From Antedon mediterranea (taxonomy: Eukaryota; Echinodermata; Crinoidea; Comatulida; Antedonidae), in NCBI RefSeq assembly GCF_964355755.1, contig NC_092677.1:27684101-27748100 (forward strand): a stretch of DNA of 64,000 bases. The letters run 5' to 3'. A program made the translations under genes and the position numbers. Under the pieces are notes generated by a model. That model searched no databases. It was not told where the DNA came from and saw only the letters and a program-made list of their open reading frames with translations. Positions 9,485 through 36,120 of this stretch are shown here, one piece after another (positions within the stretch are counted from its first letter, which is position 1; each line of letters starts with the position of its first letter).

Positions 9485-12400
9485 ATGGGCCAAAACCACA
9501 CGGGCCTTAGCGAACCAAGCTCAGATGAAGAAAAAAGGAAAACTACAAAGAACAAAAACGGAGGGAAAACAAGTGAGAAACAGAAGAAAAAATTGTCAAT
9601 AAAATCTATGAAAAGATCTATGAAACGTAGCAAAGATCAACCTGAATCTTTACAAGAAGCAACAAAACCAGCAAACACATTTGAAAATAAATGTTCGGAA
9701 GATAGGAGAGAGGAGTCGGATGTTGCATCTTCTACGTCAGAGCAATATTTGTCGTCTGCTAAATGCCGAGAATCAGAGAGCGGAGTGACGTCATCACCTA
9801 AAGATTCGTCAACGACAAATAAACCAGATGTCAAAGGTGAATACGAACTACACATAATATTCAGTGCTTACAATTAAGGGCAGTATATATTAAGACTTAT
9901 TTTCGTAAAAAATAGGGTTTGTGATACATTTCAGATATTACCTAACTGAGGCCTTATCATTTCAGAAAAAGATTTGTCTTCAAATGATTGTCAGGCGAAG
10001 ATGGAGTCACACGTTGATACACAAATGCATACTATTGACATGAATATAGGACATCTTCCAATCATCAGAATTGACCCAACTCAGAAGAAGCAGAAGAAAC
10101 AAGCTGGAGAAGACATAACACGTGCTTTAACAGATGAGGTCACTAATGACTCAAACGTTGATACAGGTAGGTTGGAATTTAGTGTACTACTGTTAAGCCT
10201 AAAATAAACTAAAAATGTTCAGTTGACGTCACTACAAAGATTATTTCAAACTAACCAATCTCTGTTTTCAAAACAGACATGTGTGAGACATGTGGAATCA
10301 AGAATGGCACAATGTCCTGTGATGTATGTGAACATTCCAGATGTGATAGTTGTGATAAAAAGTGGCACAACAATCCGAAAAGAAGAAGTCATCAACGAAG
10401 ATCTAAAAAAGAATCCTTGAATAAATCTATTGAAATAAAAGATAATTCTGATACAGGAGAAACTGAAAATGAAACAGAAGTGAATGGAATTAAGGACAAT
10501 ACTGACACATTATGTGAGACATGTGGGGTTAAGGTTGGTACCATGACTTGTGATGTATGTGGGAATTCTAGATGTGATAGTTGTGATAAAAAGTGGCACA
10601 ACAATCCCAAACGAAGAACTCATCAACGAACAGAAACTTTAAATAAATCTATTGAAATGAAGGAGCATTCTGATACAGGAAAAGCTGCAAAAGAACCAGA
10701 GTTAAATGGAACGAGGAAAGAGAGCCTAAAAGAAAATGAAAGTTTAGAAAAGTCATTGAAATCGGAAGAAGTTCAACAAAGAGGACAAAGTGTACCATTA
10801 AACAGCATTGAAATGCGATTAGAGCAAAAGAATTTAGAAAATATTGGACGTAATTATCCTGAATTAAAAAATTACGCAAATGTTCCTGAAGTATCTCACG
10901 AAAATGGTAGAGATAAATCGGATGTCTTTCAACCAAATCAGATGAGTACATGTTACAGGTCAGATAACGAAGAACTGTTAGGTGACAATAGCCAAGGTAA
11001 AAACGAAATACATAAGCCTAACATTTAGATATAACATGTTTAATTCAGTTCAAATAGACAGAAACAACAACTGGATATGTTTAACAAATACTAAATGTTT
11101 ATTTTATATAAAAGATGAGCTGTGTGTGCTCTGTGGTGTTGAAAAAGCTAGTATTCCGTGTCAACAGTGTGGTGACGCAAGATGCGTTCAATGTGACGCA
11201 AAATGGCATCGGCACAAAAACAGGAACAAACATATCAGGAACAAGACGCAAGTTTTGCAAGAGATTGCTGATGGAAATCCTAAGAAAGATACAGCCTCGA
11301 CGGCGGAAGAGTGTGAACCAGGAATCAAGAAAAATGATGAAAGAACCAACAAAACTGAATACCAAGAAAATGAAAATGATTTTGACAAACCGACTGAGTT
11401 TGGTAATTTAACTTTTTACATTTACATATTTGGTAGATTTTATAGTCAAGTCTGTAACGAAAAGAAGACGTGCTTAGATACGATAGAGCTTTTGTACGGC
11501 GCATGCGTTATATTTGTATCTTGGATGCAGATCAATGGATTTAACTTCGTTGTTGTACTGGTGATAGAAGTAATAATTTTGTACTTTAAGCTGTTTTAAT
11601 GTGATTAAAATGATTTCATTATTTTGTTTTTATCAAAACAGACATTTTTACTGAAGGCCTTACTACTCCAGAAAAAGCTTTATCTTTAAATGACCGTCAA
11701 ACGAAAGCGGATTCACATATTGATACACAAAAACATACTATAGACATGAATATAGGACCTCTTCCAATCATCAGAATTGACCCAACTCAGAAGCAGAAGA
11801 AACAAACTGCAGAAGGTATGACACGTCAAGGTTTAACAGATGAGGTCACTAATGACTCAAACGTTGATACAGGTAGGTTAGAAAATATTTTCTGCAGTTA
11901 ACGTCATTTCAAAGATTGTTTTACAAGTTAACCAATCTCTCTTAATTAAAGTAACTAAATATAACGTTTTATTCCAAACAGACATATTATGTGAGACATG
12001 TGGAGTAAAGAATGGCACGATTTCCTGTGATATATGTGAAAATTTCAGATGTGATAGTTGTGATAAAAAGTGGCATAACCACTCCAATAGAAGAACTCAT
12101 CAACCAAGACCTCGAAGGGAAACATTGAATAAAACTACTATTGAAACGGAAGAGAATTCTAAAAGAGAAGAAACTGCAGAAGAACTAGAGTTGAATGAAA
12201 TGACAGAAGAGAGCATAAAAGAAAATGTTGCAAACGTTGGACATTTCGAAAGTTTCGAAAAATCATTAAAATCGGAAAATAAAAAAGTTCAACAAAGAGG
12301 ACAAAGTGTACCATTGAGCAGTAACATTGAAGTAAACTTAGAGCAAAAGAATTTAGAAAATATTGGACGTAATTATCCTGAATTTGAAAATTACGCAACA

Positions 12401-15400
12401 GTTTCTGAATTATCTCACGAAAATTGTAGAGATAAATCAAATATCTTGCAACCAAATCAGATAAGTACAAGTTACACACCAGATAACGAAAAACTTTTAG
12501 GCGACAACATTCAAGGTAAAAATGAATTACATAACATTTAGATTGTATATGACAGAGTATAGTTTAGTAATTAAAGATATACATCAACAATTGGATATGT
12601 TTCTCACACTTTTTTTTCTTATTTTAAAAGATGAGCCGTGTGTTCTCTGTGGTGTTGAAAAAGCTATTATTCCGTGTCAACAGTGTGGTGACGCAAGATG
12701 CGTTCAGTGTGACGCAAAATGGCATCGGCACAAAAACAGGAACAAACATATCAGGAACAAGACGCAAGTTTTGAAAGAGATTGCTGATGGAAATTCTAAG
12801 AAAGATACAGCCTCAGCGGTGGAGTGTGAACCAGAAATCAAGCAAGAAACAACAAACGAAACTGAAAACCAAGAAAATGATTTCGACAAAACAAACAAAA
12901 CAGGTATTTCAATAATTGACATTTATATTTGGCAGGTTTAATAGTCGAGTACTTAGTAACGCCTTTTTAATATGATAACTATATTATTTCATTCATTAAC
13001 ATTTAACAAAAATCAAAACAACAACTTAATTGAGGCCTTTCCATTTCAGAAAAAGCTTTGAATGACTGTCAGGCGATGATGGAGTCACACGTTGATACAC
13101 ATATGCATACTATTGACATGAATATAGGACATCTTACAAACATCAGAATTGACCCAACTCAGAAGCAAGCTGAAGAAGACATGACACGTCAAGCTTTAAT
13201 AGATGAGGTCACCAGTAAAGAAGCAAAATTTGATGAAGGTTGGTTTGGAGTTTATACCTATATTAGAATATTAAAGCTTATGTACCTCTGTATACGTCTC
13301 TCCAAATAAAATTTATGAAGATAATTATAAGAATTTTAATAACGTGTTTTTTTTTAAAATAAAAAACAGACACAATTTGTGATACATGTGGAGTTAAGGT
13401 TGGTACAATGACTTGTGATGAATGTGAAAATTCCAGATGTGATAGTTGTGATCAAAAGTGGCACAACCATTCAAAAAGAAGAACTCATCAACGAAGACAT
13501 CGAAAGGAAACATTGAATAAAACTACTATTGGAGGAATGGAAGAGAATTTGGATAGAGGAGAACCAGAGTTGAAAGGAATGAAAAAGGACAGCGTCAAAG
13601 AAGCCTTTGTGAACTTTGGAAATTCGGAAAATTTAGAAAAGTCATTGAAATCGAAGGAAAATAAAGAAATTCAACAACGTGTGACATTGCACAACATTGA
13701 AATGAGCTTAAACCAAATGCATTCAGAAAATATTGTGATCAAATCGTTTAAAAATGATCCAATTGTATGTGAAGACATTGCCGACAGTAGAGGTAATGTC
13801 GATGTCAAACTGGACACGACACCCAGAGGTTATAGGTCAAACAGTATTGAAATGCAATTGGACCAAATGAATTCAGAAAATGTTGGAGGTAATCCTGAAT
13901 TTAAAAACTACCAAAAGGGTCCTGAATTATTTCCCAGAAATGGTGGAGATACATCGGATGTCTTGCAACCAAATCAGACAAGTACAGGTTATAGGTCAGA
14001 TAATGAAGATATTCAAGGTAAAAATGAAATACATTATTATACCAGTATACAATTGATATGTTTCCCACAAATGATAATGGTTTGTTTTATTGTTTTTAAA
14101 AGATGAGCCGTGTGTTCTCTGTGGTATTGAAAAAGCTAGTATTCCGTGTCAACAGTGTGGTGACGCAAGATGCGTTCAATGCGACGCAAAATGGCATCGA
14201 CACAAAAACAGGAACAAACATATCAGGAACAAGGCGCAAGTTTTGCAAGAGGTTGCTGATGGAAATCCTAAGAAAGATACAGCCTCAACGACGGAGTGTA
14301 AACCAGAAATAAAAAAAAATGATAAAGAAACAAAAGGAGGAACTGAATGCAAAGATAATGAAAATGATTTTGACAAACCGACAAAAGGTAAAGGGTCATT
14401 TTTTCTGAATTGTGAAAACTGTTTTGTTTATAAAAAAAACAAAAAAACAAGAGGAAAATGTTTGTTATCATGCTAAGAAAATGTAATAAAGAAAGTATGT
14501 TTATTTTGAATTGTTCCTTATGATTGAAGCATAGGTTACCGTACCATTTAGGAATATACTATTCTAGATCTCAATTATTTATTGTATTATTATGTTAAAG
14601 AACCATGTGTTCTTTGTGGTGTCGATGACGCAATTATCCACTGTGACGAGTGTGGTGACGCAAGATGTATAAAATGTGACACGAAATGGCATCGACACAA
14701 GAAGAGAAATTCACATAAACGAAACCAGCCTCCTTCTAATATCGAAGGTATAATAGGTTACAGCAGCACTATTACACTACCTAACATAATGCCAGAAAAG
14801 GAGTTCAGTGATCCTGGAATCGGAGACGGTGAGTTGTTCCTTATACCAAGATATATTAGGCCTACTTATGAACTGATGATTGAAATGCGCATATAATCGC
14901 GCTTTCGTTTCAAGAGAATAAATTCTTCAGTTGCCAAAAACAGACTTCAATGCATGTTATTTGTTCATTGCAGAGATTGAACCATGTGGCATTTGTGGCA
15001 AGGAAGATGGAGCTATTATTTGCAATGAATGTGTATATATTTTCTGTAAAATTTGCGATGAAAAATATCATCATCATAAAGATAGAAAGACACACGAAAG
15101 AAGACACAAAGGTAACAACAATTTGTTAACAAAATATAATTTTAATTGTATCCGTAATCTATAAGACAAAACGAGTATATATATGAATATACGCATGCGT
15201 ATAATCCAAGCGGCTTTGGGTTCGCGTGCTAATGAATTCACCTCGTGTGGAGAACAGCTTAAACTTTGTGTTGACCGCAAAATAGTCCGTTTTTCAGTTA
15301 ATATTATATTGACATCTTACAGAAAGTAACCAGAAAATATCGGACAGAGTTGAAAATAATCTGAATCAGCCGGAAACGATGCCAGTTGGCATAAACGAGG

Positions 15401-17246
15401 TTTCCCAAAAACTAAAATCCGATTATGAAGTTGTAACGGAGAAAATCAACGCATTGGAATTAAGATTACAACATATGGACTACAAAGGGGATGAAGAACG
15501 CAAAGATATAGAAGGCGAACATAAGGAATTATTACGAAAAAGGCAATTACTTATGGTACGAATAGAAGCTGTTGATGCTATTGAGAACACATCACATTCA
15601 AGCCATGCTGGTAGCACTTCTCTAAACACCTGGACGACCAAAAGTGAAGTTGCTAAATCTGATAAACCTCGAGTCGTTTCTGGAAGGTCATCACTACGAT
15701 ATGTCATAGATCACGACGTTGAAACAGATGGTCCCGTTGAATACGAAAACGGTAAGAACAAAATAAATAATGAATTTGAACTCATTATTCAGTAGTACCG
15801 AAAATACGAAAATAGCACAATATTGTGCGTTGTTGTTGATAATTAAGGAGATTCTGTATACTTTAGTCGACTCACGCTGAAAACAAGTACAGCATTTCTT
15901 ATTATTTAATTTCAGTAGCAAATCAACAACATGACTCTTCGATGCAAGATGACGTAATGATGCAGGTTAGTTCAACTTGACATGAACATATGGAATATAC
16001 AGAATAATATAGAACATTAAAATACCAAATCTTTAATGGCGTCAATTATTTAAAATCAAATAATATAAATATTTTTCATTTTAAGGAGGCGAGAAATCAG
16101 GGTTTTGATTCAGATGATATACGAATTGCCAAAGAGCAATGTAAACAATCTGGTTGTAATTTTGTTCAATGGTTAAAATTCAATTATAAGGCGTTTATTG
16201 CCGAAGTATGTAAATCCGTAACAAATGAACTTCATCAGTTAATACCAGGAGTCCGAATTGCAGAAGCCTCGGTGATACGGTCACTAGTAAAGTACCCCGG
16301 TGACGTGAACAGAGCAAAAGCAACGTGTGTTCGTAAATTCGAGGCTCAGGTAGGGACTCACTTATTTTTGCAATAGCATAGTTCTTGGTGAAACTAAAGA
16401 CAGTTTGACCATAGAAAGTAACTTGATTTGATAGACGCGCTATATAAATAGTCGCGCGCGTACGTAAGATGTTAGTACGGTACTTTAAAAATAAGGTGTC
16501 ATCATAATAATTAAATGTTACGCAGTCGCAGGTAAACTAAAAATAAATAAAATTTAATTATTGTAGATTTGCGAGATCCTTCAATTCGAGTTTAGAAAAG
16601 ACAGTCATAAACTTACTATGCACGAGGTTTCACAGTATCTGTACAAATGCAACGGTGATGTGGATAAGGTAATGGCGATGATTAAAACAGACGGCTACAA
16701 GCTTGACATTGCGGAGAGAATTTGGAAGTATGAAGACGAGATTGAGTCTGTATCTGTTCTATTGAAGAAACCAGAAGATTTTCAACAAGAAGAGGTGCGG
16801 ATAACTTATTAAAACTTGGTTCTTAATTGACGCACGGAATGGCGTACGCGCAACGCAAGTGAATCGACCAATCACAAGGGACAGATTGATCCATTGCGTC
16901 GTGATTGGTTAGTTTACTTGCATTGCGCTTACGTCCTTACGTACGACCTAGTTGAAACCAAGCTTAAAAGATCGAGATCCAACATAACAAGTTATTGTTT
17001 GCTCAACAAATACTAATGTATGTTTTAAGTGCTAGATTTCCATTTATTTACTTTATATTGTTTTGACAGAGACACAAACGCTTGATAATGGCGGAGTTTG
17101 ACCTGACCTGGGATGTAGCATCTAGATTGTTTGATAAGATTCAGGCGCATCGGCGGAATACAAAGACTGACGACAGTGAATTCAGTAGATGGGTACTGAA
17201 TACACTGCGCTACGCATCGAAACACAGAACAAATCCGACAAAATAA
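9485..17246 (+). CDS. RBR-less HOIP (RNF31) paralogue with nine B-box-like zinc fingers
   Basis: Seventeen exons join in phase (about 1,734 aa): 9485-9836, 9966-10166, 10277-10996, 11115-11402, 11672-11872, 11982-12515, 12631-12903, 13050-13238, 13370-14017, 14103-14387, 14601-14828, 14974-15111, 15323-15751, 15916-15965, 16086-16349, 16567-16794, 17070-17246. The N-terminus is Lys/Ser-rich and begins M-G-Q-N-H-T, a possible N-myristoylation site. Nine zinc fingers start near residues 187, 264, 428, 591, 769, 923, 1139, 1233 and 1311. Their pattern C-x2-C-x8-C-x2-C-x4-C-x2-C-x4-H-x7-H is B-box1-like. A coiled coil follows (about 1370-1450). Residues about 1513-1734 align exon for exon with the UBA region of the RNF31 gene at 28993-38758. 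There is no PUB, NZF, RING or catalytic Cys. It is probably a non-catalytic LUBAC-related scaffold (inference). The exon 5 start could instead be 11642, in the same frame. Confidence 0.85.
9966..14387 (+). repeat. three tandem copies of a three-exon zinc-finger module
   Basis: Modules begin at 9966, 11672 and 13050. Each has (i) a ~200-nt exon with the conserved peptide H-T-I-D-M-N-I-G and I-R-I-D-P-T-Q-K; (ii) a long exon with a C-E-T-C-type finger and an acidic linker containing Q-P-N-Q; (iii) a ~280-nt exon with a C-V-L-C-type finger and a K-K-D-T-A-S linker. The C-V-L-C exons at 11115, 12631 and 14103 are almost identical over about 120 bases. The first long exon has two fingers. Introns are also partly alike: the same ...GAGGCCTT...CAG stretch precedes each module. 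Confidence 0.9.
16813..16965. mobile_element. MITE family A copy in the last intron of the zinc-finger gene
   Basis: The left end ACTTGGTTCT and right end TTGAAACCAAGCTT are inverted. The interior carries GCGCAACGCAAGTGAATC and its inverted counterpart TTTACTTGCATTGCGC, with CCAATCACAAG / CGTGATTGG in the centre. The copy is complete but diverged. Confidence 0.7.
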
Positions 17247-18967
17247 TAATAACAATCTTTCTCCAGAAGACAACCGAAGTCAAACGTGAAGACAGTCCAG
17301 TCCCTAGGCCTACTTTTTATTTCCTTTGAACTCACCCGGTGTACCGCAAACGTGACTTTACTAATACAACTTATGAATGCTTCTATGATAAGTAACTTTA
17401 AAATTCAATGGAAATTCATTAATTCAATTCTTTGCTTCGGAATCTCTGGTCCATAGAAAGTAAAATTACATATAAATGAATTAACAATAATCACTCAAGA
17501 CTGTAATAATTACTACTAATTGAGAGATACACTTTAGGCTTAAGAAAGTAGAAAAGTGGCAATATACTGAACGCAAATGGAAAAAAACGCAGCATGTAGT
17601 AAAATACGATACGATAGAGTAAACATGCCAAAAAAACCTTTAAAAAACTTATATATCGATATAATTATATTTAGGCCTATGTCTGAGCCATCTTATAATT
17701 GATATGCTGTAGTTAACAATAGTTATTTTATTAGTTGCCTATCTACAAAATGATCTATTTCGAAAACAATGTTATTTATTTCGATAATGGTTTCTTAAAT
17801 ACAAAAATAATATTAATATAGGTCTATTCAATTAAAAAATATGAGCATAATTTCATTACGTAATCGTAAAATAAATAAGAAAATAATAAATATATGTGTA
17901 CCTGGATGATGTCAATAATTATCTCATACAAAAAAAAAACAAAACAAAAAGAGCAGCAGCGTGCAAAACATGGTAGACATTTTTGTATTGTAGAAGATTG
18001 AGGTAGGTTTCAGCTACTATTTTCAGCTTGATTAGGTTGATAAATAATATTTCTTACTGAATGTTTTAAAAGTGTATGAGACCGTTCGGACTTTACAGTT
18101 TACACATGTAATGGTCGCATGAGGTGTAAATTTTGAGATATAGGCCTAAGGAACAATTTGAACGCGTAAAAAGGTGTAAATGTAAATTTTTGTCCCTAGA
18201 GTAATTTAGGTTATACATGTGTATTTGATTTTAAAATCTGAACACAGCTCAATTGAGTTTAAAGTCCGAGCACAGCCCCCGAGTAATTTATGTTAAACGT
18301 GTAATCGAGTTTAAAGTCCGAACACAACCTTCAAGAGATAAAATGCTATATTTTTAAGCCACAGTCCTAGTAAAAATATGACCTTTTTAAGTTTTCTAAT
18401 GAAATTCATTATACCATCGTACAAAAATAAAACATTGTTGTCAATGAAATATTATGACATGAAATCACCAACAAGCGAACCGTGTGTAAAACAGACCAAT
18501 CAAAAGTATAAGTGAGTGAAATACAGCCGCGTCAACAAGCGAACCGTGTGCAAAATAGACTGTTCGACTATCATACAACCATTTTAACTGATAACAGGCG
18601 AACGTTGCTGGTTGAAAAAGTTGATGAACGAACTCACGAAGAAGCGAACCGTGTGCAAAACAGACTGTTTTAACTGAGGAACAGACGAACGGTGTGTTAA
18701 AGATGTAATGTGAGATTTTTAAGTGCAAATTAAAATTAAAAGGTAATTGATGATAATACATGTCCGTTTAAACAACTGGTGTGGACAAAACGTACCTATG
18801 GTGATATGTAGCCTTTGTACTCATGACCATGAACTTGGTCCATGGTACCATCATTAATTCATGAATATTCATTAATCTGTGATGGCATATACGGGCTAGT
18901 ATATAAAACAAAAGAAGACACATTTAAACTATTCTTCTCAATCATGGAGACATTGTACAAGCAGAAA
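17247..18967. other. intergenic region before the SLC7 pair
   Basis: AT-rich sequence with no exon recognised. It contains imperfect repeats of GAGTTTAAAGTCCGA with ACACAGC (about 18220-18330) and a set of CGAACCGTGTG repeats (18473-18705). From about 18738 the sequence matches 23581 onward, which marks the left edge of the SLC7 tandem duplication. Reading frames extending upstream of 18968 cover this duplicated 5' flank. Confidence 0.5.
18473..18705. repeat. short direct repeats upstream of the SLC7 genes
   Basis: AAGCGAACCGTGTG followed by TAAAACAGAC or CAAAAYAGACTGTT occurs near 18474, 18537 and 18643. A diverged version (ACGAACGGTGTG) lies near 18685. The spacing is irregular (about 60-105 bp). 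Confidence 0.7.
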
Positions 18968-21900
18968 ATGTCCGGTTGTAATTCGACAACGTCAAGCAAA
19001 AGTGATAGAGAAGGCGTTGCTCTTGTTCGCCAACTCTCAATCATTCCATTTTCATCGTTAATTATCGGAACGGTGATTGGATCTGGTATTTTCATTTCTC
19101 CAAAAGGAATTTTAGAATATACACATACGGTTGGATTATCCATGATAATATGGGTGGTATGTGGTTTAATTTCAACGTTAGGTGCTCTCAGTTATGGAGA
19201 ACTGGGCACAACATTCTCCAAAACTGGCGGGGATTTCATTTTTCTTTTGGAATCGTTTGGGCCTATGGCTGCGTTTTTAAGAATGTGGACCGCCATTATT
19301 GTTGTTAGGCCTGCCTCGTGGGCGGTTCTTGCTATAACATCGGCTACTTATTTAATAACGCCTTTCTATCCTAATTGTAATGTTTCATTATTAGCTGTTC
19401 GTCTTCTGGCTGCCACAATTCTTTGTAAGTATGATGATAAAATATTTTAATTAAAAATCCTTGCTATATGATTGTTGCCATTACCATTAATATTGACAAA
19501 ACGTAATGTTGAAATGTATTTAAGGGAGCTTTGATTTGCGACGACCGGGACCTAACAACTGGGCATATTATTGTGTCATTGGTCGTCTCCCTAGAATTCG
19601 CCAAAACTGTTTTTTTTTTAGGATCGAGTGCACAATAAATTATTAGTTAATTAATTATAAGTTATTTAGTAAACATTTATCAATAGTCTTGCTTTTTTAG
19701 GTGTAATTTTCTTAGTGAACTGCGTCAGTGTTCCAACAGCGTCTCGTTTGAATGTGTTTTTTACAATCGTTAAACTGTCTGGTTTGATTGTGATTGTCCT
19801 AGCCGGTATCGTGCTACTTATCCAAGGTAAACATTATTATTATTATTATTAATAATGTTATGGTAAATATAGAGTTGCATAGAGCTTGGAAAAAAAGACA
19901 ACAAATGTGAGGAGGCGAAATTGCTTCCATTATCAAGTAATCAAGTACTATTTCTTTTTGCAGGTAATACAGAACATTTTAAAGACCCATTTAAAGGAAA
20001 CGAAGAGTTTAAATGGATTGAGCTGTCGCTTGCATTTTATTCTGGATTTTTTGCATTCTCTGGTTGGTAAGTGGGTGTCATCCCTAGCTTAGACATAAAG
20101 AAAAGTAAAGCTAGAAAAAAGCAAGTCGTTTTAATTTAAGTTGTGACTGTGAAATGTAATGTATGTAATTATTGTTTTTATAATCATACTAATTATTTGT
20201 ACGTTTTTGTTTTAGGCACATTGCAGCTTCTATAACAGAAGAAGTAATAAACCCTTCAAGGTATAATATTTGTTGTGTTTTAAAATGTTTTGTTACAAAA
20301 TTCCATGCTTTACTAAGAAATTCCAAACATTATAACTGAACATAAACAACCGAAAAATTGAGGCAGGCCATTATTATTCAATATTTTGAACTCTATTAGT
20401 TCATTTTAAGAAATGAATCAAGCTTTCCTAGATTAAAAAGTAACATTCTTTTTCAAAGAAAGTTTCTATGAGTTGTAGAATTTAGAAATTCCTGACGACA
20501 GAATATGTATACGTGTGTGCAATCCCATTTCGGTTGTAAATTGCAACTCTGTAATATCAGCATTATATATTAGGCAAAGAATTGACTTGTATACCTACTA
20601 CTCTAGATTACATGGTTTTTAGTCGCGTGGACGTGACTCTATAGTTCACTATGTCGGTCGGTCGGTCTGTCGGTCTGTCTGTCGGTCCGGTATCACTATG
20701 CGTTTTAGCACGCGACTTATGGCTGTTGGCCTTGTTAAATTGTATCTGGATGATCAATAACATATATTAATTTGCAGGACAATTCCTGTATCAATAATAA
20801 TCGCCATGACGGTGATTACCAGTGTATACATCATGGCAAATATTGCATATTTCACTGTCCTATCACCAGCCGAGATTCTTGCTTCTGACGCTGTTGCATT
20901 GGTAAGTCATTCCTGATATATTTCAGTCACAAATTTACATTTCATGTCCATCTTCTTCTTCCTATTACACTCCTACTTTAACTTCTCTATATTTTCCATA
21001 TTATTTTCCATTCTCTATGTATAGCTTATATACGTTTTATTTTATCTCAACATTTTATTAACTCTCAATTTTACATATACATAATTGAATTAACATTGTA
21101 GAGTTTTGGTCAGAAGGTGTTTGGAGACTGGGCCTGGGTCTTATCAATTGTGGTAGCAGGTTCGTGTATAGGTGCAATTAATGGTGGAGTTTTGACTTCA
21201 TCAAGGTAATGTACTATTGGGTACTAAATTGTTAGAAAACTCAGATATTTTTTATTTTGTTTTATTCACGTATTGTGTCTCATTTTAGAATAAACTTTGC
21301 AGCGTCACGTGAGGGTCAATTACCTAAACTGTTATCGATGATTCACATCAACTTCAAAACACCAATGCCGTCTGCAGTCATTATGGTAACAGTACTCCAT
21401 CCTCATTTCTCGCTATCTACACACAAATAATGAATGAAAAGGTAAATTAGCGATTAACTTTTCTACTTACACTTACAAGTTATTTCTTTCTAATTTCAGC
21501 TTCCACTAACTTTACTTCTACTTGTTAGTGACAATGTTTATAGTCTTATAAATTACATGAGCTTTACATTTTGGCTGTTTATCGGCCTCACTACTGCAAG
21601 TATTCCGTACTTCAGAATGAAATATCCAGACTGGGAGCGTCCATTTAAGGTTGGCTATTATTTTTTTATTTAATTAAAAAAATGTTAGTGTTATGTTAGT
21701 GACAGTGGCGGATCCAAACATTGTGAAATGAAGTACTGAACTTCATCTCAACAACATCACCATCTATTCTTATTTTGCACCTCCACCTTTTGAATCCACC
21801 TATTAATGAACTTGAAAGAGCATACAAGGGTATTTTGAAACGTTTTTGTCTACTTTTTTTCTCCGTATTTAATGTTATATCTTGGGGTGGTTCAAACTTA

Positions 21901-22524
21901 AGGTCTTTCTGACTTATAAGACTCCCCCCACCCTACTTCATTGTATTCATTGTGTATATCCAGTATGTTATAATATTGTGGCAATTACATTGAAATTGTC
22001 TATCATTTTGCCTTATTCCAGTTTTTTTGTAAATTATTTTTTGCTGTTTTTAGTTTCCAAGTTATTATTTTTCATGGTTTCACAAGCGCCTTGAGCACTT
22101 TGTGGATATGTGCGCTTTATAAATTGTATTATGTTATCTTATCTTATCTTATTACAGGTGAACTTAGCAGTACCAATCATATTCACGTGCTTTGCGTTGT
22201 TTGTCGTTGCTATATCTCTTTACTCTGCACCAAAGGATTGTGGGGTTGGACTAGCTATTACTGTTGCGGGTATTCCACTTTATTTCATAGGTGTGCGGTG
22301 GACGAAAAAACCAGCCTGGTTTGAAGATGGGATGGGTAAGGATTTAAAAATAAATGACGGTAATATCATGGTTAAAAAAAAAAACATTTTAAATTATACC
22401 AAATAATTTGAAATCAGGGCAATTGTTTAATAATTTGTATGTTTTTTTGTCTTTAACAGATAATGTCACTTTATTTTGTCAAAAGTTAATGTTGGTGGTT
22501 GAGGCCGAGAAGAAAGAAGACTAA
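18968..22524 (+). CDS. SLC7-family amino-acid transporter light chain, copy 1
   Basis: Ten exons: 18968-19424, 19701-19826, 19964-20066, 20216-20260, 20778-20901, 21102-21205, 21289-21385, 21500-21649, 22158-22335, 22460-22524. The sum is 1,449 nt, or 482 aa, as expected for a LAT-type light chain. TM1 carries the APC signature G-x-V-I-G-S-G-I-F, the unwound substrate site. Cys137 (Y-P-N-C) sits in the loop where SLC7 light chains form a disulfide with an SLC3 heavy chain. W-x-H-I-A-x-x-I-T-E-E-V and the A-S-R-E-G-Q-L-P-K loop are also conserved. About 12 TM segments are expected. The start M-S-G was chosen because both duplicates share it; in-frame upstream ATGs lie in the duplicated 5' flank. 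Exon 8 uses a GTTGGC donor in both copies. b(0,+)AT, LAT and xCT cannot be separated here. Confidence 0.93.
20620..20739 (+). repeat. dispersed GTCGGT-repeat element, copy 2
   Basis: It lies in intron 4 of SLC7 copy 1 and is nearly identical to 967-1078. The matching intron of SLC7 copy 2 (25421-25750) lacks it. It therefore inserted after the duplication, or was lost from copy 2. Confidence 0.8.
21870..22155 (+). mobile_element. retroelement 3' end in SLC7 copy 1, intron 8
   Basis: The stretch ends in GCGCCTTGAGCACTTTGTGG, then GCGCTTTATAAATTG and a tail of TTATC repeats. This looks like the 3' end of a LINE or SINE. The tail runs straight into the acceptor of exon 9 at 22158. The matching intron end in SLC7 copy 2 is unrelated and pyrimidine-rich, so the insertion is specific to copy 1. 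The 5' limit is approximate. Confidence 0.5.
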
Positions 22525-23760
22525 AGGAAGTTATATTTATATATACGTATATATTATTATAATGATGATTTACAATCACATTAGCTATTATTGACACTAT
22601 TCCAGCCTATTGATTAAGAAAAAAAATGTTCGTAGTCCCTTTACCTATTATTCAAGTAAATTCACGGTGTAGGAATTTGATCAAATAATGTAATACAAGT
22701 TTTTAACACTAGTTAGCTTACTAGTCTGGGTTCCAGGCGGAGTTTTGACTTAATACTAGTAAAAAGATAAATATGTTTGCCCATTATCATATGCATATTA
22801 TGCACATTATGGTCTATCATTATTTTACTAGCTCTTTCATGTCTAGTACTAGCATACGGTATGACCAAGGCAATCAAACAATTCTAACTGATGCTGAGCT
22901 CCGGAGATGAAAGGGTTTATCTGTGGCTGTGACAAGATCAGTTCCACGCACCTAATAGACGTAGTCAGTACTGTTGGTATTTGTTGTTACGAACGTGTTC
23001 CTATCTTAGCAAAGTGAGCTCAGCGTCCTGTTGTTAGATTGACTTGGTATGACGGACTTAATAGTCAGCATTCACCGCAAGTACGTTAATAAACGCATGC
23101 CATAGTACTAAAGCACTTCGCTGTGGCCAAAGCATTAAAAACAAAATTATGGCCAAACGCATGAAACGGAGGCTTTGGAAGCTCGCTAGGTGGCGCCATA
23201 TTTGCCATTACAATCACACATAAACTTAAACAAGCAGAAAAAACTTTATTCAAAATATTTTATTAAAAAAAGCTAGAAAGATGCCAGGTTTTTCTAAAAG
23301 ATGCTGTTTTTGATGCATAAATATTTAAAACCAGTTCGGCAATGGTATATTTTATCACATGCGTAGGTTGTTTCCTGTTCAAAAAACGACATGCAAATTC
23401 ACTCTTGGGATGCCAGATTTAGTGTAGGAGGATGCCAAATTTGATCAAATTATGCCAGATGCTAAAAAAATCCTTGGTCTTAAACACTTTATTCTGACAG
23501 CAGCCTGCGAATTAGAGTTCTTCTCGAACATATCCTAGTCCAGAGTGATTCAATGCGATACTGATACGATAAGAATTAACAAAAAGGTAATTGATGATAA
23601 TACATGTCCGTTCAAACAATGGTGGACAATGCAGAATGGTATGTAGCCTTTGAACTCATACCATAAAAACGGTACAAGCCTAGTATATAAAACAAAAACA
23701 AACAAGAAACCTTTAAGCTCAATCAGAAAGACATTGTACAAGGAAAAGATTGGATCCAAA
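22525..23760. other. spacer between the SLC7 duplicates
   Basis: No gene was recognised. From about 23581 the sequence repeats the 5' flank of copy 1 (GGTAATTGATGATAATACAT, GTATGTAGCCTTTG), so the promoter region was duplicated with the gene. There are short AATGCCAG/GATGCCAG runs near 23280-23460. Confidence 0.5.
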
Positions 23761-26700
23761 ATGTCAGGTGGTAATTCGACAACGTCAAGCACAAGTGATA
23801 GAGAAGGCGTGGCTCTTGTCCGTCAAATCAGAATAATTCCATTTTCATCGTTAATTATCGGAACGGTGATTGGATCTGGTATTTTCATATCTCCAAAAGG
23901 AATTTTAGAATATACACATACGGTTGGATTATCCATGGTAATATGGGTGGTGTGTGGTTTAATTTCAACGTTAGGTGCTCTCAGTTATGGAGAATTAGGC
24001 ACAACATTCTCCAAAACTGGTGGTGATTTTATTTTTCTTTTGGAATCGTTTGGGCCTATGGCAGCTTTTTTAAGAGTGTGGACCACCATTATTGTGGTTA
24101 GGCCTGCCTCGTGGGCGGTTCTTGCTATAACATCGGCTACGTATATCATAACGCCTTTCTATCCTAATTGTAATGTTTCATTATCCGCTGTTCGTCTTCT
24201 TGCTGCTACGATTCTTTGTAAGTATGATAAAATATTTTATAAATTCTTTATTTAATTAATTAAATTTTATTAATTGATTAATTCGTAATGTTTATTAAAT
24301 TAAATCAAGCAGGACCCTAATAACAGAGAGCTTTCGATTTCTGACAATCTAGGACTTACTAGACGTATTATCGTTGGTCGTCCCATAGAATTCGCCTAAT
24401 CTAGTGGGATAGCGCGTCACAATGTTCCCGCATGCGCACAATGAATTACTTAACGTAACTAGATCCTAGGATGTCACAAATCGAGGAGCTGTTTGATCAA
24501 TAGTCTTGCTTGTTTTAATCTTTTAGCTACTTTTTTTAATCAGAAAATTGTGTTGTATTGTAGTGCTGTGTTGGTGCAATTTTTATGTGTATTTTTACTG
24601 TTTTATGTATATATAATTATTATGATATGCCAGTTTTCAAAACAAATTTCTGTTAATTCTTTTTAATGGACAAATAAAGATACTATGACTATTGTTACAG
24701 GTGTGGTTTTCTTAGTCAACTGTGTCAGCGTTCCATTAACTTCTCGTTTGAATGTATTTTTCACAATCGTTAAACTGTCTGGTTTGATCGTGATTGTCGT
24801 AGCCGGTATCGTGCTACTTATCCAAGGTAAGAAGTACCAGTTATCTTATGCTGCATAAATGAGACAAGGTGAGGAGCTTGTAAAAGAAAAACTTGTAAGG
24901 AGGCGAAATTGTTTCCATAAAGCTTGGTTCCCACTAGGACGCAACGCAAGGACATAAACACAACGCAAGCGTGTTGACCAATGACAAGCGACACTGCGAA
25001 TAATCAATCGCTTGTGATTGGTCAAATGAGAACCAACCATTATCAAGTAGCTGATATTTTTTGTTTGCAGGTAATACAGATAATTTTAAAGACGCCTTCA
25101 AAGGAAACGAAGAGTTTAAATGGATTGAGCTGTCGCTTGCATTTTATTCTGGACTTTTTGCATTCTCTGGTTGGTAAGTGGTAAATTAATAATATGGCGG
25201 ATTCAGGAATTTGAAATAGGGTTGAAGAAGGAGGTGACTTAACCTACAGTAATGTTCCATTGTAATTTTCAAAATTCAGAATAACGATAGGATGCCCCAA
25301 CTTAGAAACAAGGTTGGAAAAATAATATGTAATTTATTGTATTTACACAATAATCATTTGTACGTTTTGTTTTAGGCACATTGCAGCTTCTATAACAGAA
25401 GAAGTAATCAACCCATCAAGGTATTATTTTGTTTTATTTTACATTATAACATAAAACAACCGAAAAGTGAAGAAGCCATTATGATTTAATATTTCGAACT
25501 GTATTTCTTTATTTTCAGAAAACACCAGCTCATCTTAAATATTAATAAAACATAACCAATTGTTACGAATTCAGACAATCCATGACAGAATATTTATGTG
25601 CGATCCCATTTGGGTTACTAAGACACAGTTATGTATTCGAGCAATATTTTAATAGAACTATATATTATGCAAAGAATGGACATTTTACATACAAGAAGGT
25701 ATTTAGATGTACTAATTCTGATCAATAATATATGGTATATTAATTTTCAGAACTATTCCTGTTTCAACAGTCATCGCTATGACAGTGATTACCAGTGTAT
25801 ACATCATGGTAAACATTGCATATTTCACTGTTCTATCACCAGCTGAGATTCTCGCTTCTGACGCCGTTGCATTGGTAAATACCGTATTGCCTTGTTCTTT
25901 GCATCAAATTCGTCCATCAATTCTTTTCTTTATGTTCCTTCTTGACGCAATAACCTCTGCCATCTTTCTCATCAGACCGCCATTAATAATAATTTTACAG
26001 ATTTAACATTTGCATTATCGTTTAGTATATTTCTTTATAGAGTTTTGGTCAGAAGGTGTTTGGAGACTGGGCCTGGATATTATCAATTGTCGTAGCAGGT
26101 TCGTGTATAGGTGCAATCAATGGCGGAGTTTTGAGTTCTTCCAGGTAATTTAATTCAACATTTATTTTAGACAAATTGTTAGAAAATTCAGATATAGAAA
26201 TTATCTCTGTCCGAGACACATCTTTCTGTTTTCTATGTTGACATTCCAAAGTTAAAACATTGATTCTGTACCTTTATATACAATCCATTAGTACTACTAC
26301 TCACGTATTTTTGTTTCTCCTCTTAGAATGAACTTTGCAGCGTCACTTGAGGGTCAATTACCTAAACTTTTATCGATGATTCACATCAACTTCAAAACAC
26401 CAATGCCGTCTGCAGTCATTATGGTAATTAGTTTAAAATCATGCGCAGTAATTATCGACACATTGGAATGCAACTTGAAAAAGTTTAAATGTTTTTAATT
26501 CTAAAAATGTACACCATTTCATCCTTTCTCGCTAATTAAATAGAAACAATGAATGAATGATAAAAAGACATAATAAATGAAAAGGGTAAATTAAAAATAA
26601 AAATAGATTACACTTCCATATGCCAAGTTATTTCGGATTTGTTTTTTTTTCTTTCAGCTTCCACTAACTTTACTTCTACTTGTTAGTGACAATGTTTATA

Positions 26701-28992: not shown

Positions 28993-31900
28993 ATGGCTGA
29001 CCTCCGCAGATTGCCTTCTGGTTATATTACATCAATAACATCGGACATTTATGGCCCTCCGAGTATGGGGGATGACACGAAAAATGCACGTATGAAAATT
29101 ATCAACAGTCTTCGAGGACATCAGACTGTTGATCAGATGGAAATTGTTGATGACATTTTAGTAAGCGACAGTTCGTTACGAGGACATTATGATGTTGTTG
29201 ATGTTGTGTCGCTACTGAGGAATAACATTAGTGGAAAGGTATGGATATATTTTAAAAATCAATATATTTATAAAAAAAAATTATGTTAACTTGAATAATT
29301 TCTGGCCCAAAATACTAATGGTTAACTGTACTTACACTGTACTTGGTTTAAAAAAAATCCTGTTTTCTGACAACCAATGGTTATTTTTAAACTTTCAATT
29401 ATAATTTTTACAGTTAAATTATTTTTGTGAAGTAAACAATATGTTACATTAAAATGGCATATTCAACAACAAATTATTTTTCAGGGGGACAATATACATT
29501 GAATACGTTTAGTTCTCAAATTAAGTGGCCATTGTAAACCGGTATATTGCAGTCATTTGAACTTTGTACTCTATGATAAGACTGTGACACAGCATAGGAA
29601 ATAATGTTCTACAATACGTACTATAAACCCTTTTGTAATAAAACTAAATAAATATTTTTGATAAAGATATAACAGATAACAGATCGTATCTGTACATGAA
29701 ATATCGTATTTGGTGATTAGGATCAATACGTTTAAAATGCATGGAGTTGAGGGTGTGTGGAAGCCTTAAAGAGGGTGGGGGTTCCTCTTACCTTTTCAAA
29801 CTAGAGATATGCAGAGGAAATGATAAAATAAGCATATCTACAGTACCCTTTACCATGATCATTTTTTTCACTTTTTGTGGAAGTGGAAAAAAACAACCTG
29901 TATAAAAATCCTAGGGCTTGGTGGGGATATTGATTAATAATAATTATTGTTGCCTAAAACATTCTTTTTAGTCTGTGTCTCACATTCTTTAAACCTGAAA
30001 ATACTTTGTACATTTTCTGTACATTTAGAGAGAAAGTGAAGCTCTTCAGTTGATTAAAACTGCTGTTGGAATTTTGGAAAAATATGGACGCAATCTACTG
30101 AAGCCTACAGCAAGCCGTCCTCCAAAATGGAAGATTATTTTCTTCTCAAATGGTGTTTACAAAACAAAAGTTGGAGTAGTTGAGGTGAACTAAACTCTAT
30201 TGTCAATCATTATTATATTTCAATATTCTACAAGCTGTATAGTTGTTACCATAATATACAAGTAAAAAACAACATTTAGTAATACTAATACACAGCTTGT
30301 ATGCTTCATTATTGTTTTTCCCAAATTCTATGTATGTTTATCTTACTATTTATATATATTTTCTATCGATGTTTTTTGGGCACAGTTCAGTTTTGTACTG
30401 CTATGTCTTTTTTTTTTAATAAATCAGAATAGATAAAAAAAAATTACTAATTGTTATAATTATTGTTTTTGTTTGTTTAGGGATCAAAAACAATACTTAA
30501 TCTGCTTGGATATACCTTATCCATTGCTGATGGGTTATCGTTCCCCAATGAAGTTAACCACCCTGATGAAGATCGTGTTCTAAAGATAGTTACAGACCTT
30601 ATGATAGCTAAAGTAGAGATTGAGAAATACTTGAACAAAGTTCATCCTCATCCTGATGAAATTTACTATGTTCTTCACGGTGACAATCGAATGACATCAG
30701 TAAACACCGACATATATGGACCGGCAATGTCTGTTGATGAAAGAAAATTTCAGGATAGTAGCTATAGCTTTGGCTCTTCAATCTATGGTTCTGCTCCGAA
30801 CACATTGCCTGGTAACATTCAAGCACAAAGTCAGCATGGAACAAATTTACAGAAGGAACACATGGCAGCCCAACTGAAAGGACCTACTCACTCTCAAATT
30901 GATGGTCTTGCACAGGTTACAGAATCCGTACACAAACCAGAACCATCAAATGCTTCTAGCTCTACACTTGTTGGTCAAGTAGGTAAAGCTGAAAGTATTC
31001 CCAGTGATGGAAGTGGTAAGTAACTTGCTCGAATGTTATACAGTCGACTCTTTCTATATCGAAATCCCTAAAAACTGGAAACTAAAACAAAGGGTTCCAA
31101 ATTTGTTTTTTTACCATTCAAAATACCAACATTTTGGGAACAAAAACAGATTTATATTTTTAGTGTGTGATGTAGAGAGTTGACTGTACAGTATATCATT
31201 TTTTTTATACAAAATAGTGTTATTTCCTATTTGTGCTTGTTATCCTTCTAATAGTAATTTCTGATCGTAATTGAATAGAATAAATAACTATAAAACATTA
31301 CTTAAAAGGATGGAAGATATTTGATGACATATGCTATCTTAAAATTGCTAGAACTTTCAAGAGCTTAATACAGAAGATTTATTGTACCTAATTTCAGAAA
31401 ACAGTGAGATCGATTGTAACTTATGTGGTGAGAAAAAAGCAGCCATATACTGCAAAGATTGTAAAAATGCAAATTGTGTAGAATGCGATGGTATCTGGCA
31501 TTCGCATCCAAAACGAAAGTCTCACAAAACCGAGCCTTTAAATAAAGAGAAGGATAAGATGGCGACAGCTGCGGTACCTTTGAAGGTAGAGCCACAATCA
31601 AAATCATTTGTATCTGCTGATGACTACAGCCAGACAAAGATTGCAGCAAAAGTCAAGAGACCACCATCTGAAGTTTTTGAACATACATTTGAGAATCTAC
31701 AATATACACCCAAAGATCGACCTGAAACTTTAACATTTGTGTAAGTAGAAATTTTAGTATTACGCCTTGTTTTGCCGTATATATTACTTATGTATTATAA
31801 TTGTAATGTGTTGAACTGATTTAAAATGCAACTTAATTAACAATTAAATAAAATATGTTGTATTTCAATAGTGAACCACATGAAAGTGATCGAAAGAGAC

Positions 31901-34900
31901 CAGTTGCAACACCAAGAAAAGACAGAACACCTTCAAGTGAAGAACCAGTTACTCCTTTAAATCCTTTTACAGGAAGCAACTTGCAGATGAGATCTAAGGA
32001 AGACAAGGATTTATATACTTTGCAGCGACAAGTACCTACATCAAAGACACCAGAGGATACTGAAGAACTCAAGGGTCAGTTATTGAGAAAAAGTATTGGA
32101 ATTTTGGAAAAAATAAAATTAATTCAGGAAAAACAAGATATGATATTAGATGAGACGAGTGATGAATTCATAGTGCTGGAAAAAGAAAGAGATGTTCATA
32201 TGTCAAGAAATGAAAGCTTACAGAAGCGTATCAAGGCTTTGGATACATGTACTCCTGGAAAGAGAGAATTAAAGATCATGACCAAAGAAAGTAGTATTTC
32301 TGATCTGCTGCATCCAGTCATAAAAAAACCTCCTGTTGAAGATATTCTAAGTATGACACCAAAAAAGACACCAGAATCTGAAAATGCTGAACCAAGAAAA
32401 TTAGTCGATGAGTTGGCAAAACTTGAAATACAAAGCGAGGGTAGCCCTGATGCCAAACATTTGATAAATCCTCCAGAAATTTACACTCCACCTCAGGTTG
32501 CAAATCGAGAACCAATATTATCTGCCGTACCAGTTCCAGCTGTACGAAAGAATTTACCAAATCCAGCAAGAGAGGGAAATATCACTGTGGAACCTCCAAA
32601 ACAAACATCAGTTGTAGATCAACCTCAACAGGCAACACCAGTTATTCCTTCTGACAATGCTCACAGAATTGGATGGGGATGTCAGTATTGTACCTTCTGG
32701 AATACTGACACAAGTTCTATCATATGTGGTATGTGTTCAAAAACCACATATAGAGATGTTGGAGTGCCTTCTCAAGGTGGTGATGGTGCTCCATCAGGAG
32801 TTGCTCAACAATCGACATCTGAATCAGAATTGATAACAAGAGATGATGTAAGTTTAATAATCACATTCTATATGTCAATGCAAAGCTCTGGTCTACACTA
32901 GCAAACTAGATTGACAGAAAAAGTGTGTCCAAATATGGTAGTGATATGATGTCATCGTGTCCATATATGAGGGACATCACATTTTTTTGTCACATCAAGT
33001 TTGTTAGAGTGTAGACAGAGCTTTTATATTGTGCTATTAATTTGTAAGTTACAGTTTATAGTATAGATTTTCTCAATGATTTAATTAAATTGATATTTAT
33101 TGAAAATTTGCTTTCAGATGGTACAAGAATTAAAAGTTGAAAGTGTTGTTAAAGCAAAATCTGGTACTGATAAGAAGACTAGCTTTGCATCTCACACTAT
33201 GCCTCGAACCAAAACAAAATCTGAGGTGCCTGTATCTTTAATATCAGGTATGTTGTTGTTTAAATGCTATTTTCATATATATTGCTGGGGAGAGGGCCTC
33301 AAAATGGTTTAATTAAGTGCTGAACTTAACCTGATTTGTTTTGTATTATATTTATTTACAGGATTAAATACTATGACATTGACTGACATGAGAATAAAAA
33401 CAAAACAAGAAGAGCTTCGCAAAATGGGCCAACAGTTGGTGACAGCTATCAGAGTAAGTACACATTTTAAATTTTAATCTTGATCTAGAAATACCGAAGT
33501 GCTGCCAGCTCATGTCTCATTTAATAGCATTTGGCTTTAAAATTTATCTTCAGGATTAATTTATCTTTGTATAATTTATTCTATTTAGAAAGCACAGAAT
33601 AAAAACTTTGATTTTGACACAATTGAAATGAGTGTGGCATTAGCTGAGCAAGAAGACAAGTCAGTGGATGTCTGGCTTGAAGAAAACCATGCTGATTTTA
33701 TGGAGACAGTTACAGTCATTATAACGAATGAAATTAATGCAATTATACCAGGATCCAAAGTGTCTGAGGAACTGCTTTTGGAGCTTTTGCACAAACATGT
33801 TGGAGACATTGAAAAGGTGAAACAAGAATATGTTGGACACTTCTATCGTGAGGTAAGGATTAAGTCTTTCTGTTTACTTTATTTACTTCTTTATACTGGG
33901 AAGCATGTTCAGTATTAAACTTTTGTTCTCCTAAAGTGCCCAATATAAAATACTTCAAAATCTCTTTATGTTTGCATTCTTCATTTGGTTAAAATTAAGG
34001 GTTAATAATCATCATTAAATTTAAGGTTGCAAAAGTAATTATTAACAGTTAAGTGAAAGTCGAAAGGGGATAGATAAAGCGTTGCCCCAATGAACTCCAT
34101 TTACCATCTCCCTTCCTCCCTGATTTTGAAGTGAATTATACTGAAATGATTCATTAAAACTTAAAATGTGTAGAAAATAGATAAATATAAATAGATTTTA
34201 CATAATTTCGTCACACAGATGAAAGAGATAGAAGAATTAAAACTTGAAAGAAATGGGCAAACTCTAAAAACAGATGAGATTCAAGCAGAACTGATTAGAT
34301 GCAAAGGAGATGTTGACAAAATGATTATGGAAGTACAAAGGGAAGAAATGCAAACATTTGTTAGTAGACTTGGGAAAGAGAATCCTGACATGAAAAAAAC
34401 ATTCTTTAGTGATCCAAATGAAGATCAAGAGGTAAATTGAAAATGTATTTTCATGCTTGCTACTAAGTCTAGTGCTACAGTATGTTTATCATATAGCTAC
34501 AGTATATTTAAGTACTTTTATTTAAAAAATATTAGATCAGTAATCCAGACATTTTGTTTACGGAAAGTGAATTGAAACATATTTGGATTTTTTTTGACAG
34601 AGAAAACTTAGAAGTTTGTTTGCAGAATATGATCTAAAGGGCTGGATCAGAGCTGAGCATGCTTTGATATTATTAAATGAAAATGAAGAAAAGATTAAAG
34701 AGGATCCAGAGTATTTTGATGATGTTATTCAAGCTGTAAAAGATCAACTTCTTCTAGAAGAAGCTAAGAGCTTCCTTGAAAAAAAATGCTCTATGTGTTG
34801 GGATTTGTTGCCAATGACACGGGTATGCAGTTTACTTCACTTCTTTCATGAATTCTTGGACACCAATCTTTGTATTTATGTTGATTTTGGTTTACTTATT

Positions 34901-36087
34901 AATAAGAAAAAATAAATTATCAATACAGTACTTATAAACTTTTTTTATGATCATACTTTACAACCACACCTAAAAACTTACAATGTACTAATACTTACAA
35001 ACTAACTACAAATACTATACAACTGTATTTACTGTACAACCATACTTACACATTTACTATGCCATCTTAAAAATTCACTACAAGCTCTCTTTTACAGCAG
35101 TAATACAATCCACACTTACTGTATAAGCAATCTTTCACCCACACTTAACATTTGCATTTTTCAGATGTGGCAACCAATATTTTGTTCCCAACACAAGCAG
35201 TGTTTGGTTTGTAAAGAATGTCTTGGTACACACTTTACAATTTGCATCAAAGAAAAGAATATCATTGATGCTTCATGTCCGTCTTGTGATCTCCCAAAAC
35301 TTAAAGAAATGGGGAAAGCTGATCTGGCAAATTATTTTGCAACAATTGACCCTATGGTAAGTTACCATCAATTGTGTTTTATTCTATAATATTAAATTAT
35401 GTAATTTTTTTCTGACATGCTTACATTTGAATTTCAACAGTAGTATTTTGGTAAATTATGAATTTAAAATTCATTCCTTTTTTAGTTACGAAGTTTACTC
35501 AAGCCGGATGTTTTTGATCTTCTTCATCAAAAATTAAGAGACAGAATATTAATGGAAGATGAAAGATTCAGATGGTGTTCCGATGTAAGTAAATTAAATT
35601 AATAGTGTTGTGGCTCTGGTGCAGTTCCAGGATGCCCACACAGTACACAAACGTAGGCCTTTTTTTTTATGGTGTGTAGAATATTTTAATGTACTGAAAA
35701 AAATGTACTGTTTGTGTGTTTGTATATTTAGTGTGTCATTCCAAAACCTCACTAAATTATTTTTTGTTTTCTTCTAGTGTCGTAATGGTTTTATTAATGA
35801 AAGAAATGGACTTAAAATGCAGTGTCCGGAATGTAGAAAGTACTCATGTTTTAAATGTAAAAAAAAGGTAAATTTAACTAAAACTGTTAGCACTAATTTA
35901 TTGGTATCTTGAAAACCCAGTGAAAAATTACCTTACATCACTGGTATTCATGGTTGCCTAGTGATAGAAAGTATGACATGTTTTATTTTGCAGTGAACAT
36001 TTTAGAATATATTTTAGAATTAGATCATGGACCTATGGTGCTATAAAATTATAAACTATGTGAAAATATACTTTGCTTTCAAAGACG

Positions 36088-36120
<33 letters not shown>

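Follow-up and report, generated by a model that had tools for sequence, protein, structure and literature searches.

A HOIP paralogue with nine B-box-like fingers and no ligase domain in the crinoid Antedon mediterranea

Linear ubiquitin chains are made by HOIP (RNF31), the catalytic subunit of LUBAC. The stretch of Antedon mediterranea DNA analysed here (64,000 nucleotides, hereafter called the window) contains a full HOIP gene, referred to as gene B, and upstream of it a second gene, gene A, which appeared to retain the UBA region of HOIP and none of its ligase domains. This locus therefore raises the question of whether gene A is a genuine HOIP paralogue that is maintained as a protein and, if so, what a HOIP without a ligase may do.

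Gene model and domain content of gene A

We rebuilt gene A from the DNA, and the 17-exon model that had been proposed at 9485-17246 on the forward strand was reproduced. All of its 16 introns are of the GT-AG type, every exon is in phase with the next, and splicing gives a single reading frame of 5,235 nt that runs from an ATG at 9485 to a TAA at 17246 and encodes 1,744 amino acids, with no stop among the 1,744 codons. The starting phase is 1 for exons 2-14 and 0 for exons 15-17. Exon 1 (9485-9836) carries the start codon and a low-complexity N-terminus, and exons 2-10 consist of an exon triplet present three times in tandem. The nine B-box-like fingers of the original prediction were all recovered in a profile search with the Pfam model ANCHR-like_BBOX (PF22586), which matched nine stretches of the protein (E 6.2e-27). 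Fingers 1 and 2 are encoded by exon 3 and finger 3 by exon 4, both in the first triplet (exons 2-4, 9966-11402), fingers 4 and 5 by the second triplet (exons 5-7, 11642-12903), fingers 6 and 7 by the third (exons 8-10, 13050-14387), finger 8 by exon 11 (14601-14828) and finger 9 by exon 12 (14974-15111). Exon 13 (15323-15751) encodes a charged stretch that is probably helical. Exon 14 (15916-15965) is the expected site of helix 1 of UBA1, which is the SHARPIN-contact helix in mammals, and the contact residues are not kept there. UBA1 and the middle helix are found in exon 15 (16086-16349), which has 88 codons, and UBA2 in exon 16 (16567-16794); both exons are phase 0 on either side, as are their counterparts in gene B, exons 8 and 9. 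Exon 17 (17070-17246) corresponds to the 5' part of gene B exon 10, and its stop precedes the first RING1 cysteine.

The UBA_HOIP profile (PF16678) matched gene A with an E-value of 6.8e-13 and 49.3 bits, compared to a curated cut-off of 22.4 bits, and this score is as high as that of gene B. Pfam profiles for PUB, NZF, RING1 and LDD gave no match in gene A, and the IBR matches were half-profile cross-hits on the fingers, the best stretch covering profile positions 41-62 of 65. Similarly, when the whole gene B protein was compared by tblastn with the region 7400-28900, the matches were confined to the B-box and the UBA apart from weak cross-hits on fingers, and no ligase remnant was seen around gene A. 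The absence of PUB, NZF, RING1, IBR, RING2 and LDD was thus confirmed by both approaches, neither of which detected an RBR (RING1-IBR-RING2) with a catalytic cysteine. Throughout the genome, the LDD profile (PF18091) matched only gene B and a third gene, gene C, which is described below.

Elsewhere in the window, an ORF at 1206-2084 on the reverse strand contains the Speriolin C-terminal domain (PF15059), and a 560-aa ORF at 46873-48555 contains a thrombospondin-like WSxWxxCSxxCGGG motif and probably belongs to a large extracellular protein.

Descent from HOIP and coding constraint

Gene B (28993-38758, forward strand) has 19 exons encoding 1,414 amino acids and was recognised by Pfam as a full HOIP/RNF31. 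Its domains are PUB, one B-box, NZF, the double UBA, RNF31 UBA, RBR and LDD, of which the NZF-like finger in exon 5 was read from the sequence and has no Pfam score. The sole B-box is located in exon 4 (31398-31740, forward strand), which is preceded by a phase-1 intron in the same way as the finger exons of gene A, and exons 8-10 (33589-34822, forward strand) encode the UBA region, whose homologue in gene A is encoded by exons 15-17. Genes A and B are separated by a tandem pair of amino acid permease-type transporter genes (18833-26006). Intron 17 of gene B contains a sequence that resembles a tRNA but has an odd ATC anticodon (37481-37552, reverse strand); it is perhaps a tRNA-derived repeat.

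The exon pairs A15/B8, A16/B9 and A17/B10 have the same phase 0 boundaries, and A15 and B8 are both 264 bp long. By BLASTP the two UBA regions matched each other at E 5e-18 with 27% identity. When the gene A UBA region was searched against the 354 Mb genome, that of gene B was the only non-self match below E 5 (4.2e-7), and the reverse search with the gene B region found that of gene A only (2.7e-6). The fingers of gene A likewise had a single match outside gene A, namely the gene B finger (6.9e-8), to which finger 8 is nearest (47% identity); the main finger types are 35-47% identical, both among themselves and to the gene B finger. Moreover, the order of modules, finger followed by UBA, is common to the two genes. 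Given the shared phases of the UBA exons, the 264 bp pair, the BLASTP match and the genome-wide only-matches, common descent with HOIP is well supported, and the proposed homology of the UBA region to the nearby RNF31 is thereby substantiated.

The divergence between genes A and B is saturated (22-30% identity). Searches of PDB sequences gave no match for the gene A UBA region as a single-sequence query, one chance match only for a two-sequence UBA profile and chance matches only for a single finger; the gene B UBA region alone found human and mouse HOIP UBA at E-values of 0.03-0.08. The coiled coil of gene A had also been thought homologous to that of gene B, but the comparison of exon 13 with gene B exon 5 gave a score of 35, which was equalled in 60% of shuffles, and this part of the prediction was dropped.

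With regard to constraint, indels between the three tandem triplets were multiples of 3 in 36 of 43 cases in exons compared to 11 of 37 in introns, the pairs compared not being independent of one another. The dN/dS values for the fingers of exons 4, 7 and 10 were 0.14-0.22, and those for their tails 0.36-0.78. In addition, each of the nine fingers has kept all eight zinc ligands (C2-C2-C2-H2), that is, 72 of 72. The in-frame indels, the low dN/dS of the fingers, the preserved ligands and the UBA_HOIP score together argue for selection on gene A as a protein. Regarding both identity and descent, we consider it almost certain that gene A is intact, codes for a protein and is paralogous to HOIP/RNF31.

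The UBA region and its putative partners

The expectation that the C-terminal region folds as the HOIP UBA was supported for one of the two exons modelled. The AF2 model of exon 15, for which the gene B exon was the sole relative in the alignment, consisted of five helices with a mean pLDDT of 79, and its best Foldseek and VIA-align matches were the HOIP UBA crystals 7uyk, 5x0w and 5y3t. The top five Foldseek and the top three VIA matches were all HOIP, and the match was in register, placing residues 29-88 on HOIP 519-579 (Z 6.0, rmsd 1.8). It should be underlined that the Foldseek E-values were weak (best 0.13) and that a helical domain may be expected to reach a Z of 6 without difficulty. 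As helical domains readily find matches and the E-values here are modest, we take the modelled fold as support for a HOIP-type UBA1, not as proof. Exon 16 (UBA2) modelled alone displayed odd strands, and HOIP UBA was not among its structure matches.

Mutation of R474/L483/V486 in mouse HOIP impairs binding to SHARPIN, and mutation of Q607/L611/F614 impairs binding to HOIL-1L (PMC6044281). We compared these six positions in an alignment of genes A and B with human and mouse HOIP, in which the placement of UBA1 helix 1 is uncertain. Gene A has V, M, D, K, Y and I at these positions, none of them identical to mouse HOIP, the HOIL-1L-contact Q/L/F in exon 16 being changed to K/Y/I. Gene B, on the other hand, has K, Q, V, Q, M and F, of which three are identical and two conservative. 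A contrast of this size was seen in about 0.5% of random six-column sets (P about 0.005). The overall identity to human HOIP over 151 positions is nearly equal for the two genes (36 for gene B and 31 for gene A), and the contrast is therefore specific to the contact faces.

An orthologue of HOIL-1L (RBCK1) with exons matching UBL, NZF and RBR is present on the contig from which the window comes (C8:9712956-9717815, reverse strand). The query was a human HOIL-1L sequence, the UBL part of which was verified against PDB entries; in the list of RBR proteins drawn from PF22191 matches, HOIL-1L was not recognised by eye. No separate SHARPIN gene was seen in the genome search. As a HOIL-1L gene is present and the contact residues are kept in gene B and changed in gene A, gene B probably binds HOIL-1L, and gene A probably binds it differently or not at all. 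The UBA2 contact positions of gene A are still partly hydrophobic (Y and I), and given these residues some HOIL-1L binding may survive.

From these data we infer the following as the most likely mode of action for gene A. The repeated exons indicate that the finger was multiplied when phase-1 exon triplets were duplicated in tandem. The resulting nine B-boxes would form an array to which one or more proteins bind, and the UBA pair would dock a UBL-bearing partner, which may be HOIL-1L, contacted via an altered surface, or a different protein with a UBL. The partner would probably not be bound in the way HOIP binds HOIL-1L and SHARPIN, because the residues contacting UBL in mammals have been replaced. 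Our judgement is evenly balanced on whether gene A works as a ligase-less multivalent adaptor in this manner; the explanation taken as a whole, a HOIP paralogue serving as a ligase-less adaptor with altered UBL docking, is one that we slightly favour.

The original prediction had instead envisaged a decoy, scaffold or brake in linear-ubiquitin signalling that operates through HOIL-1L and SHARPIN. Gene A would then take HOIL-1L, together with SHARPIN if present, from gene B via the canonical UBA-UBL faces. Several elements of this proposal stand, namely the descent from HOIP with retention of its double UBA, the loss of the ligase and the presence in the genome of HOIL-1L, including an exon for its UBL. 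It is nevertheless weakened by the contact residues (none of six identical in gene A against three plus two conservative in gene B), by the poorly kept helix-1 region of UBA1 and by the failure to find a separate SHARPIN match in the genome, and we regard it as unlikely.

Less likely still is that the exons at 9485-17246 do not constitute one gene, either because they come from two genes or because exons 1-16 are spliced to gene B exon 10 to give a long LUBEL-like ligase. Such splicing would be compatible with the phases (phase 0 on both sides) and with the location of both genes on the forward strand, and LUBEL is indeed a long gene with multiple isoforms (PMC5090701). However, gene A possesses a last exon of its own, homologous to gene B exon 10 and ending in a stop, and is separated from gene B by the two permease-type genes; furthermore, its fingers and UBA follow the same order as in gene B, and all its exons join in phase.

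Gene C, related proteins and implications

The LDD search led to gene C, a second intact HOIP paralogue on another contig (C2:18975768-18985998). Its exons join into one frame of 819 amino acids with the order PUB, NZF, RING1-IBR twice, RING2 with the catalytic GGC motif, and LDD (Pfam, 1.5e-31), and neither UBA_HOIP nor a B-box was found in it by Pfam. The PUB domain is 63% identical to that of gene B over 77 residues, its Pfam match being weak. Two exons of gene C are fused, one combining the end of PUB, the NZF and the start of RING1, and the other the end of IBR and the start of the second RING1; internal deletion and duplication are thus marked. Most exons are 56-78% identical to those of gene B, with dS mostly 0.3-0.6. 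Judged by these divergences, gene C arose more recently than gene A, or else gene A has evolved much faster. The RBR of HOIP together with its helical base is active alone, whereas full-length HOIP is inactive (reviewed in PMC3940038), and by analogy a HOIP without the UBA region, such as gene C, may be less restrained.

Genes A and C have no domain in common and together make up the domain set of gene B. Since they are complementary in domains and not in age, we do not claim a single split of HOIP. The functions of HOIP might still have been divided between the two genes, with the binding half, in multiplied form, in gene A and the catalytic half, free of UBA, in gene C. The halves would work in trans or would form independent branches of linear-ubiquitin signalling, under different control, next to the full HOIP, although this appears improbable. 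Even more doubtful is the narrower proposal that the two genes act in trans, with gene A supplying the partner-binding half that gene C is missing. The complementary domains and the single open frame of gene C, including the RING2 'GGC' motif and LDD, are in line with it, but the ages differ (saturated divergence between A and B), which probably excludes one common duplication event, and there is no sign of contact between genes A and C. Finally, it is hardly credible that gene A is a duplicated HOIP in decay. The missing domains and the rapid evolution of the linkers (dN/dS up to about 1 in places) might raise this suspicion, but it is largely refuted by the open frame, the kept zinc ligands, the mostly in-frame indels and a UBA_HOIP score as high as that of gene B.

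Compared to HOIP/RNF31, gene A has the double UBA with common intron positions and phases, the B-box and the module order, but it is devoid of PUB, NZF, RBR and LDD, contains nine fingers instead of one and has its UBL-contact residues replaced. In Drosophila, some LUBEL isoforms are without UBA2 or the catalytic RBR, and the RBR-less ones have been proposed to be adapters; moreover, LUBEL has a HOIP-type UBA that does not bind ubiquitin chains (PMC5090701). Both observations fit the adaptor view of gene A. The short LUBEL isoforms resemble gene A in being ligase-less products with HOIP-type modules (PMC5090701), but they are isoforms of a ligase gene, whereas gene A occupies a locus of its own, has no NZF and carries an array of nine fingers. 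ANCHR (ZFYVE19)-type proteins match the same Pfam B-box model (PF22586) as the gene A fingers; gene A, however, has no detected FYVE domain, carries a HOIP UBA, and its fingers are nearest to that of gene B. As in TRIM proteins, the B-box fingers of gene A are followed by a helical stretch, but gene A has no RING or typical TRIM C-terminal domain, and its fingers come from HOIP. Assignment to the TRIM family was rejected because Pfam detected no RING finger ahead of the B-box. The claim that no protein with the architecture of gene A has been described agreed with our literature searches, which found none, but it has to be qualified by the LUBEL isoforms that do without UBA2 or RBR (PMC5090701). 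No RNF31 paralogues in sea urchins were found in a literature search.

Descriptions of linear-ubiquitin signalling usually include just one HOIP. A genome in which a full HOIP coexists with one copy that has no ligase and another that has no UBA represents a natural separation-of-function set, which can show whether the UBA is needed to restrain or activate the ligase, and also what role is played by the little-studied B-box of HOIP.
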